From assembly GCA_024103385.1 (NCBI GenBank), contig JAGFIT010000087.1:1-64000 (forward strand): DNA of 64,000 bases, read 5' to 3'. Below the pieces are notes generated by a model that did no database searches, was not told the origin of the DNA, and saw nothing but the letters and a program-made list of their open reading frames with translations. Positions 9,095 to 13,516 of this stretch are shown here, in pieces (position 1 is the first letter of the stretch; each line of letters opens with the position of its first letter). The position numbers and the translations under genes were made by a program. This DNA is from Vicingus serpentipes. GTDB taxonomy: Bacteria; Bacteroidota; Bacteroidia; Flavobacteriales_E; Vicingaceae.

Positions 9095-9107
9095 TTTTCA
9101 TTTTAAG

Positions 9108-9181
9108 CTCCCCCTCTTGGGCTCGAACCAAGGACCCTCTGATTAACAGTCAGATGCTCTAACCAGCTGAGCTAAGGAGGA
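9108..9181 (-). tRNA. tRNA-Asn (GTT)
   Basis: A 74-nt cloverleaf on the minus strand: acceptor TCCTCCT/AGGGGGA, D-arm GCTC-AGCTGGTTA-GAGC, anticodon stem TCTGA/TCAGA with loop CTGTTAA and anticodon GTT, T-arm CTTGG-TTCGAGC-CCAAG, discriminator G. Its first 14 bases plus 4 flanking bases are repeated exactly at 9536-9553, beyond the GIY-YIG gene. Confidence 0.95.
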
Positions 9182-9185
9182 ATTT
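9168..9185. repeat. direct repeat copy 1 (5' end of tRNA-Asn)
   Basis: TGAGCTAAGGAGGAATTT on the plus strand. It covers the first 14 bases of tRNA-Asn plus 4 bases of 5' flank and is identical to 9536-9553. Confidence 0.9.
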
Positions 9186-9189
9186 ATTT

Positions 9190-9483
9190 TTAATATCTTT
9201 CTTTTAATTTTAAAACCACCTCAGGATATTTTTTTAAATTTTTGATATAAGTAACACTTTTCATCTTTTTGATGTGACTTTCAATCATTAATGATTGTTT
9301 TTTATTGTCACACTCAACTAACAAATATTCTTTCCAATCATTTGTCTTTTTAGTGTACGAATTATCGTAGAACCCTGAGTTATGCTGTTCCAATCTATTT
9401 TCAAAATCAACTGTCATCCCTACATAGAAACGATCTAGATGAATTGAATATATGACATAAACAATATATTTCTCAAAAACCAT
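9190..9483 (-). CDS. small GIY-YIG nuclease-domain protein
   Basis: 97 residues from the ATG at 9483 (MVFEKYIVYVIYS). An upstream extension of the frame only reads through repeats and is not likely translated. Family landmarks are YVIYS and FYVGM (the GIY and YIG positions), ENRLEQHN with the conserved Arg, and SLMIESHIKKMKS with the conserved Glu. This matches the short UPF0213-like single-domain nucleases common in Bacteroidota. The closest neighbour is tRNA-Asn, whose 5' end is duplicated on the other side of the gene. Whether it cuts DNA is unknown. Confidence 0.85.
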   Translation of the reverse strand: MVFEKYIVYVIYSIHLDRFYVGMTVDFENRLEQHNSGFYDNSYTKKTNDWKEYLLVECDNKKQSLMIESHIKKMKSVTYIKNLKKYPEVVLKLKERY

Positions 9484-9517
9484 TATGTAATGAACACTTC
9501 CTCTTTTTTCTCTAACC

Positions 9518-9535
9518 TCCCGATAGCTATCGGGA
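9518..9535. repeat. palindromic repeat (family B)
   Basis: TCCCGATAGCTATCGGGA is a perfect 18-base palindrome immediately before the second tRNA-Asn fragment. The same core CCGATAGCTATCGG occurs at 54075-54094 inside a gene. Confidence 0.85.
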
Positions 9536-9553
9536 TGAGCTAAGGAGGAATTT
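9536..9553. repeat. direct repeat copy 2 (truncated tRNA-Asn 5' end)
   Basis: TGAGCTAAGGAGGAATTT, identical to 9168-9185, but followed by CCGTAAACGG and preceded by a palindrome instead of the rest of a tRNA, so it is a remnant rather than a gene. Confidence 0.9.
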
Positions 9554-9572
9554 CCGTAAACGGATGGCAATA

Positions 9573-9606
9573 TTAGTTGAAAGTTTTGAATTATACAATA
9601 TATTTG
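9573..9606 (+). promoter_or_regulatory. promoter of the PfkB kinase gene
   Basis: TTTTG at 9574-9578 and TATATTTG at 9599-9606 are separated by 20 bases, matching the Bacteroidota -33/-7 pattern. The ATG at 9629 is 22 bases downstream. Confidence 0.65.
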
Positions 9607-9628
9607 TAAAAAAATTAAAACTAGAAAT

Positions 9629-10614: not shown

Positions 10615-11343
10615 TTATCTCCCCATTTCCAGATTAATAATTGCCTCAATAATACCTTCCTCGGTAAAAGGATTAGCTACAGCATCTACCTTCACATCTA
10701 GCTGTTTAGCTGTTTCAGCTGTTTCTGGACCAATACACACCACTTTAGCATTATTTACTCCTATACCTAAATCTATAAAAGATTTAACCGTAGAGCCACT
10801 TGTAAAGGTGATATAATCTACTCCATTTTTAAAAAGGCTTTTCAATTCTGAAGGAGTATAACTTATTTTTTTATTCTCGTAAGACTTTACTGAATACACT
10901 TTTGCTTTTCGTTCTTTCAAGAATAATTCAATATCCTTTTTAGCAATAGCTGATTGTGGTAATAAAACCGTTTGATTTTCCAACAATGGCATTTCTTTCA
11001 CCAAAGCTGCAGCTGTGTATACTAATGGAACAAAAGATGCTGTTAAATTATATTCTTCTAATGCTTCCATGGTTTTGGGTCCAACTACAGCAATTTTTGA
11101 ATGAACAGAAGCAACCTCAACAACCTCAAAAAAAGTATGCACAGCATTGTAACTAGTAAAAACTATCCAATCAAATTGTTGTTGTTGATAGGTAGCTAAT
11201 AATTCAGGCTGGTTTATGGATGAAAGTTGAATCAAAGGCAATTCAACAGGTTCGGCTCCTAGCTTTTTTAATTTTTCTGAAAAAGGAGCTATCTTATCTT
11301 TTGGCCGAGTAATAACAACCCTCTTATTTTTAAGAGGCAACAT
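10615..11343 (-). CDS. hemD: uroporphyrinogen-III synthase
   Basis: About 242 residues. It closes hydroxymethylbilane to uroporphyrinogen III with inversion of ring D. The HemD family is weakly conserved, but LKNKRVVITRP at the start, IVFTSYNAVHTFFE, IAVVGPKTMEAL, YITFTSGSTVKSFI and VVCIGPETAETAKQ follow its two-domain pattern. ATG at 11343 is preferred over GTG at 11346. The gene overlaps the end of the hemA-hemC fusion by 14 bases, which points to coupled translation and supports the assignment. Confidence 0.92.
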   Translation of the reverse strand: MLPLKNKRVVITRPKDKIAPFSEKLKKLGAEPVELPLIQLSSINQPELLATYQQQQFDWIVFTSYNAVHTFFEVVEVASVHSKIAVVGPKTMEALEEYNLTASFVPLVYTAAALVKEMPLLENQTVLLPQSAIAKKDIELFLKERKAKVYSVKSYENKKISYTPSELKSLFKNGVDYITFTSGSTVKSFIDLGIGVNNAKVVCIGPETAETAKQLDVKVDAVANPFTEEGIIEAIINLEMGR

Positions 11344-13516
11344 CACTCAGCACTTTTTTTTTATCTTCTACTTCTTCTTTCAACTGATTAGCTAAAGTTC
11401 TTGCTAATTCTTTTTTATCTTCTACTTTTCCTTGAATTGATTTTCTAGAAAAATACTTTCCATCCTCTGTAGCGAAAATACCTTCAATAAAAATTTCGTC
11501 TTGAACAACTTTTGCATAAGCTGCTATTGGTAAATTACACCCTCCACCTAAAGCAATTAAAAAGGCACGTTCAGCATCAGCTGCATGTTTAGTAGGATCA
11601 TGCTTCAATTTCTTCACCAAATCCAATACATACCCATCTTTATCAATTAGTTCTATCCCTAATATTGCTTGCCCAACAGCTGGGAGCATAACATCTGTTT
11701 CAAAGATTTCAGTAACCACATCCATCATGTTCATTTTCTGTAATCCCGTAGCTGCTAAAACAATAGCATCATAGCCCTCTGTTTCCATTTTATGAATTCG
11801 ACCATCTACGTTCCCCTGAATAAATTTGTACTCCAAATCAGGTCTAATTTGTTGCAACTGAACACTTCTTCTTAAACTCCCTGTTCCGATGACTGCTCCT
11901 GCTGGTAATTCTCTTAGTGTTTTTCCTGATTTAGAAATCAACACGTCTCTTACATCTTTTCTTTCCGTGACAGGTATAATTCTTAACCCAACTACTTCTT
12001 CTGTTGGCACATCTTTATAACTGTGCACCGCAATATCAATTTCTCCTGCCAACATGGAGCGTTGCAATGCAGAAGTAAAAGCTCCAACCACACCTATATC
12101 GCCATCATCTCCACTGGTTCTAATAATCTTGGTTTCAAACTCATAATCAGGTTGTATTTTTTTCAACTGATCTATCACCCAGTTAGTTTGTGTTAAAGCT
12201 AACTTACTCCCTCTTGTTCCAACAATTATTTTCTTTTTAGGAACAAAAATATCTACTCCTTGTACATCTAAAATATGTTGTGCCGTATGGATTGGGTTAT
12301 CTTGCTCATGTAAATTCTGAGCAATACTTTTTATTCCTTCAATAGTAGGGTTAGATATTTTTCTTAATAACCGATGAGTAAATCGTTGTAACAATTCTTC
12401 AATATGGTCCTGAGGTGAATCTTCTAATTTAGGCAATAACCACTTCAGTTCTTCATTTTTTATCTCCTCTAAATTATTCCAATATTTTTCAATAATTGGA
12501 GCCACTTTTCGATTTTTTAACCATACCATAAACCAATCCAACTCTTCATTTACAATTTTACGGGCTTGTGGTATTTCATCATACCGTTTTAATAAACCAT
12601 CATAGGTTATTTTTTTAATATCATCTAAATCGTATAAAGTAATGTTTGGATCATCTTTTAAGGATGGATTAAAATTTCTAGGAACACCAAAATCAATAAA
12701 CAACTTAGATCCCCCTGTTTGTAATGCGAATTGAGCTCTCGGACATTTACTTTCAGCCATGGTTTCTTCATGCAGCAAATTAATTTCTCCCTGTGTACCC
12801 CCAATAATTACACTTGCTTCAGAAAGTGCCTGATGCATATTTTCCATGTTAACTGGCTCTCCGTTCCATTCTTCTGCCATTTCTTTCGCCCTGTCCTGAT
12901 CGTGACTTGCTACGTATAATTTTTTAATTTTTGTTCTATCCAATATTGTCGTCACTAAATTGGCCATATTCCCAGTCCCTATTATCAAAAAAGTAGTTTC
13001 AGAAATCTCAACATCATGTTGAGCAATCAATTCAAAACCAACAGTTGCTAATGAAGCCGAGAATTTACCAATATTCGTTTCTAACCGAACTCTTTTCCCT
13101 GTGTGTATTCCCTGTCGAATCAACTCGTCCAATACTGGTCCTACCGTTTTCTGTTCTCTACCTAATTCTAAAGCATCTCTAATTTGCCCTGTAATTTGAT
13201 GTTCTCCAACTGCTTGAGACTCTAACCCTGCAGCTGTAGAAAATAAATTTCGAATGGCTATTTCACTATCTGGTAAAATAGATAAGTATTGACGGTAATT
13301 TCCAAATTGATCAAAATAGTTCAATATATCATTATGACTTGAACCAAATGCATAAATAGATAAACGATTACAGGTAGAAACAATAAAAACTTCTTCGTAG
13401 CTTTTTTTCAATTCTGCTAGTGCTGCAATAGTTTGTTCCTTATTTAAAGCTAAACGTTCTCTTACCGCTATAGGGGCAAATCGATGACTAAGTTCTACGC
13501 CTACTATTTTATCCAT
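11330..13516 (-). CDS. hemA-hemC: fused glutamyl-tRNA reductase / hydroxymethylbilane synthase
   Basis: One uninterrupted 728-codon frame holds two consecutive heme enzymes. Residues 1 to about 420 are glutamyl-tRNA reductase, with the catalytic Cys in STCNRLSIYA (about residue 50), AVGEHQITGQI and a Rossmann motif IIGTGNMA. From about residue 425 (KIIVGTRGSKLALTQT) to the end is porphobilinogen deaminase, with ASTRGS-like start, RTSGDDGD, DIAVHSYKDVPTE and the dipyrromethane-binding Cys in GGGCNLPIAAYA. Both halves are full length. The fusion joins steps one and four of C5-pathway heme synthesis; hemB and hemL lie at 33062-35595. I know these as separate adjacent genes in many relatives, so the fusion is notable. 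Confidence 0.95.
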   Translation of the reverse strand: MDKIVGVELSHRFAPIAVRERLALNKEQTIAALAELKKSYEEVFIVSTCNRLSIYAFGSSHNDILNYFDQFGNYRQYLSILPDSEIAIRNLFSTAAGLESQAVGEHQITGQIRDALELGREQKTVGPVLDELIRQGIHTGKRVRLETNIGKFSASLATVGFELIAQHDVEISETTFLIIGTGNMANLVTTILDRTKIKKLYVASHDQDRAKEMAEEWNGEPVNMENMHQALSEASVIIGGTQGEINLLHEETMAESKCPRAQFALQTGGSKLFIDFGVPRNFNPSLKDDPNITLYDLDDIKKITYDGLLKRYDEIPQARKIVNEELDWFMVWLKNRKVAPIIEKYWNNLEEIKNEELKWLLPKLEDSPQDHIEELLQRFTHRLLRKISNPTIEGIKSIAQNLHEQDNPIHTAQHILDVQGVDIFVPKKKIIVGTRGSKLALTQTNWVIDQLKKIQPDYEFETKIIRTSGDDGDIGVVGAFTSALQRSMLAGEIDIAVHSYKDVPTEEVVGLRIIPVTERKDVRDVLISKSGKTLRELPAGAVIGTGSLRRSVQLQQIRPDLEYKFIQGNVDGRIHKMETEGYDAIVLAATGLQKMNMMDVVTEIFETDVMLPAVGQAILGIELIDKDGYVLDLVKKLKHDPTKHAADAERAFLIALGGGCNLPIAAYAKVVQDEIFIEGIFATEDGKYFSRKSIQGKVEDKKELARTLANQLKEEVEDKKKVLSDVAS

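Follow-up and report, generated by a model that had tools for sequence, protein, structure and literature searches.

The tRNA-Asn gene in the 64,000-nucleotide stretch of the Vicingus serpentipes genome analysed here (the window) is accompanied by a small GIY-YIG gene and by a second copy of the tRNA 5' end. The question raised by this locus is whether gene and duplicate together form a mobile unit that uses the tRNA gene as its target, as an initial annotation had proposed. That interpretation of a small mobile unit at a tRNA gene largely holds: on the best reading, the window unit belongs to a family of very small tRNA-targeting mobile elements.

The sequence TGAGCTAAGGAGGAATTT was found to occur exactly at 9168-9185 and 9536-9553, 368 bases apart, as had been described (shuffled sequences gave a mean of 0.12 matches), and no further copy with up to three mismatches was detected elsewhere in the 64-kb window. 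Owing to this 18-bp direct repeat, unit coordinates of 9168-9535 are equivalent to those given in Table 1. The 97-codon gene between the repeats, on the strand of the tRNA, was confirmed as a GIY-YIG gene (Pfam PF01541, E 1.1e-10, above the cut-off). The extent of the duplicate needed revision: its 18-base first part stands, but the remnant is longer, continuing with a palindrome and then with tRNA bases 18-25. Read on the minus strand, it consists of AAAT-TCCTCCTTAGCTCA-[TCCCGATAGCTATCGGGA]-GGTTAGAG-AAAAAAGAGGAA, where TCCCGATAGCTATCGGGA is a perfect 18-bp palindrome and AAAAAAGAGGAA is a stretch pairing back to the remnant start (fold z-score -1.84, modest). The remnant thus holds tRNA-Asn bases 1-25 except for D-loop bases 15-17, which are swapped for the palindrome.

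Table 1. Features of the tRNA-Asn locus in the window
Feature	Position	Strand	Basis
Intact tRNA-Asn (GUU) gene	9107-9181	-	ARAGORN and Rfam
Inserted unit, 368 bp	9186-9553	-	Alignment against the empty sites of G008, G010 and G004
GIY-YIG nuclease gene, 97 codons and stop	9190-9483	-	ORF, Pfam match, conserved catalytic-type residues
AAGAGGAA, pairing with remnant TTCCTC and closing a long hairpin	9498-9505	-	Fold, z -1.84 (modest)
Remnant, part 2: GGTTAGAG, tRNA bases 18-25	9510-9517	-	Sequence reading
Palindrome TCCCGATAGCTATCGGGA, in place of remnant D-loop bases 15-17	9518-9535	.	Same position in G011 and G013
5' remnant, part 1: 4 flanking bases and tRNA-Asn bases 1-14	9536-9553	-	Repeat search
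Native upstream flank with putative tRNA promoter (CTAATATTGC, 9568-9577)	9554-9628	-	Conserved in empty genomes, immediately 5' of the tRNA

The GIY-YIG gene is the sole ORF within the 368-bp unit, and no tyrosine or serine integrase is encoded there according to the ORF list. The stop codon of this gene ends 8 bases short of the tRNA, and the native promoter is found on the other side of the remnant, so that nuclease and tRNA are probably made as one transcript. A group I intron in the tRNA was considered and rejected, as Rfam gives only tRNAs in the window and the duplicate is present. Elsewhere in the window (11330-13516, minus strand), a 728-amino acid glutamyl-tRNA reductase/porphobilinogen deaminase fusion (hemA-hemC) was observed; G008, a genome of the same genus, has a similar long ORF.

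The GIY-YIG domain makes up 71 of the 97 amino acids of the window protein, and no separate DNA-binding domain was found in it. Residues Y9, S13, Y20, G22, R30, E68 and K72 are invariant among 32 of its relatives. The closest solved sequences are those of single-domain UPF0213 proteins (PDB 1zg2 and 1ywl, E 1.6e-14 and 1.5e-11) and SLX1 (about 3e-8), the latter being a structure-specific nuclease; to our knowledge, neither group has been described as mobile or tRNA-linked. Given these relatives, and as the protein has no DNA-binding domain of its own, recognition of folded or branched DNA is plausible. In I-TevI, by contrast, a separate DNA-binding region gives a long recognition site. A structure prediction from the single sequence (pLDDT 47) was set aside.

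Comparison of the tRNA-Asn locus across fourteen genomes of the genus (G000 being the window genome) showed the unit to be absent in nine, namely G003-G010 and G012, where the tRNA directly follows the upstream flank, which contains a CTAATATTGC-type putative promoter; for G003 and G007, whose contigs stop at the tRNA 3' end, emptiness is known for the 5' side only. The empty sites anticipated in relatives thus exist on the 5' side, and the displacement of the promoter suggested for the window is borne out, the flank being located about 370 bp further off than in the empty genomes. Alignment shows a clean insertion separating the conserved flank from the intact tRNA. G000 and G011 both have the unit, and in both the palindrome is identical and identically placed; relatives with the gene but lacking the duplicate would have spoken against the proposal, and G011, the other occupied genome, carries duplicate, palindrome and gene. 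G013 holds a relic consisting of the remnant and palindrome with no nuclease gene, while the locus is cut by a contig end in G001 and missing from the assembly of G002. The nearest relatives of G000 according to the neighbouring pfkB gene, G007 and G008, are empty, as are those of G011 according to its own neighbour gene. Occupied and empty alleles at one site are therefore found among relatives, as is expected of free-standing homing endonuclease genes. Genomes were available as one per species, many of them drafts broken at tRNAs, and hence the comparison captured no insertion event separating near-identical strains.

Two further loci of the genus deserve mention. In G008, a tRNA-fMet gene with an upstream hairpin-bearing remnant (L268; C70:23373-23522) occurs in a genome in which no nuclease gene was found; it is a relic or a non-autonomous form. 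In G011, the 3' part of a tRNA-Asn gene and its native downstream flank are joined to foreign, island-like sequence (L254; C117:3060-3102), and larger integrating elements may use this tRNA-Asn.

All four of the closest GIY-YIG genes in the window genome are adjacent to tRNA genes, for Asn, Val, Leu and Met. A model of 32 tRNA-linked GIY-YIG proteins was used to search the family and the phylum, the loci being fetched and duplicates removed. The initial annotation had suggested searching for other such genes beside tRNAs with partial duplicates, and these proved abundant: a tRNA gene lies within 300 bp in 97 of the 114 strong loci (at least 80 bits). In all 97 the nuclease is on the tRNA strand, being located 3' of the tRNA in 82 and 5' of it, the less common form seen in the window, in 15 (a few locus labels are uncertain). 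Several of the 17 non-linked strong loci stop at contig edges or contain partial tRNAs. Among weaker paralogues (50-70 bits) a tRNA is near in just 8 of 55; these figures depend on a bit cut-off that is not independent, since tRNA-linked proteins went into the model, while the strand result, the remnants, the protein tree and the later tests are independent of it. The paralogues of these genomes that are not tRNA-linked may be ordinary UPF0213/SLX1-type members. Searches of phage and plasmid records (E 1e-6) and of viral contigs revealed no close relative.

Beyond the nuclease gene, a remnant of the cognate tRNA is the rule. When 22 isoacceptors were aligned to this region, the tRNA of the locus itself gave the best alignment in 85 of 95 testable loci (about 4 expected by chance); a detectable remnant is missing in a minority of loci. 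In some (e.g. L009, L010, L017, L034 and L082), remnants with the same palindrome flank the intact tRNA on both sides, a pattern that would be expected from repeated insertion into the same tRNA. The draft contigs of G003, G007 and G008 break off inside tRNA genes or precisely at their ends, where tRNA remnants probably act as assembly repeats, and tRNA-linked elements may thus be under-counted in draft genomes.

The Met-type proteins were additionally scanned against a species-level genome collection, giving 80 loci. Six of these had been seen previously and counts were adjusted accordingly: a same-strand tRNA occurs within 400 bp in 61 of the 74 new loci (57 Met, 3 Asn, all in Cloacimonadota, and 1 Asp). 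The taxa covered include Bacteroidota, Balneolaceae, Rhodothermia, Ignavibacteria, Cloacimonadota, KSB1 and Marinimicrobia. The Met-type remnant CTCATA-[TCCGCC NNNN GGCGGA]-CG-AGG-TTCGA was identified in 61 of the 80 loci (62 matches, one spurious), its hairpin being found at one fixed place, where it stands in for the variable loop and the 3' portion of the anticodon arm. In the six-pair stem, two pairs change jointly from C-G to T-A (in 5 and 8 sequences, with no mixed cases), giving 13 double changes compared with 1.8 in shuffles. The percentage of paired positions is biased because these sequences were chosen for being palindromic; the joint changes at inner pairs are hard to explain without selection for pairing. 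The hairpins of other types also have fixed places, in the anticodon arm for Val and Ala and in the T-arm for Asp.

As a rule, the remnant hairpin belongs to the element itself. According to pattern searches, from which all genome-wide palindrome statistics derive, the Met palindrome TCCGCC..GGCGGA has one copy in the window genome, within the element, and TCCCGTTNNAACGGGA, the Asn palindrome of other genera, is confined to the element loci of four genomes except for single copies in G005 and G066. The window palindrome is an exception, its family having 35 sites in the genome versus 4 for a control pattern. Copies of TCCCGATNNNNATCGGGA number 21 in G000, 9 in G002, 8 in G011 and 5 in G013, with none or one in the other ten genomes of the genus; the three genomes known to hold a tRNA-Asn unit or relic (G000, G011 and G013) are all rich in it. 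The palindrome as a dispersed repeat moved by the nuclease was nonetheless rejected as a general rule, since the other two of the three remnant palindromes tested are not dispersed. Two copies of TCCCGATNNNNATCGGGA in G000 (C72:66193-66210, equivalent to L063:1001-1018, and C72:66321-66338) are located inside the gene for bacterial class A RNase P RNA (L063:792-1176). Another (L066:1001-1018) appears to lie inside a gene for a protein, which recalls the palindromic elements of Rickettsia.

Tandem arrays of five to ten near-identical units were seen in several genomes (L034, L035, L036, L198, L213 and L214). The repeated unit consists of gene and remnant with a period of 315-457 bp, and one intact tRNA terminates the array. 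On a tree of 122 proteins (81 columns, many forks weak), the tRNA label requires 48 changes against a mean of 91 after shuffling, with none of 200 shuffles as low; starred clades correspond to His, Gly, Ser, Leu, Asp and Asn types. The Met clade covers several families and classes, and the Met-type protein of the window genome groups with proteins of another class. Nuclease clades follow tRNA identity across families and phyla. Sequence divergence points to strong purifying selection on the proteins (dN 0.16 with saturated dS for the window protein and its G011 counterpart; dN 0.04 and dS 0.45 for L074 and L027).

The explanation that we favour, and regard as likely, is a homing-like, isoacceptor-specific element with a GIY-YIG nuclease that would insert at tRNA genes and leave one intact tRNA and a remnant marked by a presumably functional hairpin. 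Each unit would encode a single-domain nuclease specific for one tRNA isoacceptor, which would promote a break at or near the cognate tRNA gene or at the hairpin remnant, and repair of the break would insert the unit next to an intact tRNA copy. The expected product is an intact tRNA with a truncated cognate copy beyond the nuclease gene, an arm or loop of which has been swapped for a hairpin: the order is tRNA, terminator, nuclease and 3' remnant in the 3' form, and 5' remnant, nuclease and tRNA in the 5' form, that of the window. As the intact tRNA would remain a possible target, further rounds of insertion could follow and units would stack into tandem arrays. RNase P would free the tRNA from a shared nuclease-tRNA transcript. 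Cleavage of the DNA and its position, insertion by way of break repair, the common transcript and the part played by the hairpin are what we infer from sequence patterns, and the 'restored' tRNA and 'homing' of the initial annotation are readings of mechanism of the same kind. The hairpin would most likely serve for recognition, as a break site, or as a site that cannot be recut. The remnant copy is interrupted by the palindrome, yet the neighbouring tRNA keeps its intact sequence, and so classical donor protection by an interrupted recognition site is not evident.

A bolder version of this model, put forward only tentatively, is a new class of transposable element in which the nuclease acts on the hairpin between the tRNA halves, where the element would have its end, and the halves serve as homology arms for insertion at the matching tRNA gene. 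If so, the choice of target would be written in the tRNA remnant of the element and would stay isoacceptor-specific through horizontal spread. There is a fair chance that the mechanism is categorically new.

Some features of these loci could be accommodated in other ways. The pairing of an intact tRNA with a 3' fragment resembles attL/attR, and the unit could be a miniature tRNA-integrating island moved by a tyrosine integrase acting in trans, its tRNA fragments being attachment-site scars; the island-like junction at the tRNA-Asn of G011 would be in keeping with this. It is an unlikely origin, however, for units without an integrase that also exist in 5' forms, whose remnants have hairpins in place of arms, and whose conserved GIY-YIG gene tracks tRNA type in the same orientation every time. 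A host role of the gene at tRNA loci (maintenance or dosage), with the remnants as by-products of local duplication, would agree with the purifying selection and fixed orientation and with the plausible co-transcription in the window. We consider it improbable given the patchy occurrence within one genus, the occupation of different tRNAs in different species, a relic without the gene and clades that cross families and phyla. Slightly less probable again are tRNA decoys, by which hairpin-bearing tRNA-like RNAs or DNAs and the nuclease would protect against tRNA-cleaving toxins, phage factors or other elements attaching at the same tRNA: the hairpins replace arms hit by known anticodon nucleases, arrays hold many remnant copies and the same tRNA-Asn is used by the island-like junction, whereas the window protein matched no defence family and half of the tRNA is missing from the remnants. 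That the duplicate is due to chance, or is a decayed tandem tRNA gene next to an unrelated gene, might suit remnants that are non-functional tRNA pieces, but is refuted by the comparative data, with an exact 18-bp repeat joined by two more collinear tRNA pieces and the same arrangement at more than 100 independent loci.

The favoured homing-like element has its nearest described counterpart in SegB of T-even phages, a free-standing homing endonuclease of the GIY-YIG type that reportedly cuts inside tRNA genes; segB has been reported near tRNAs in many phages and is reported to drive tandem amplification of the tRNA-segB segment (PMC13096335). Both systems combine a GIY-YIG nuclease beside tRNA genes with tandem amplification. 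SegB is encoded by phages and is associated with many different tRNA isotypes, whereas the present proteins are chromosomal and single-domain, of about 80-100 amino acids, with clades that follow one isoacceptor and a cognate tRNA remnant bearing a hairpin. Islands and prophages that integrate by tyrosine integrases likewise use tRNA genes, keep an intact tRNA and leave a fragment, but the present unit is of about 370 bp, has no integrase, exists in 5' and 3' forms and carries hairpins for arms. Short hairpins beside a mobile nuclease gene are shared with REP/RAYT and IS200/IS605 systems, which use HUH (Y1) enzymes in place of a GIY-YIG enzyme. Assignment to a REP/RAYT system was rejected on account of the enzyme, the single copy of the Met palindrome in its own genome and the near-confinement of TCCCGTTNNAACGGGA to element loci. 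The open-access literature searched yielded no published description of the nuclease-tRNA-remnant arrangement, and the family is apparently undescribed so far.

The element is distributed across Bacteroidota and several neighbouring phyla, where it is usually overlooked as a 'GIY-YIG protein next to a tRNA'; few mobile elements that encode their own enzyme would be smaller. It would explain the hairpin-broken tRNA fragments of these genomes and why their assemblies break at tRNA genes. The family is a natural source of nucleases that are each linked to a single tRNA isoacceptor, and provides a case, open to experiment, of essential genes being invaded by an element that does not kill its host.
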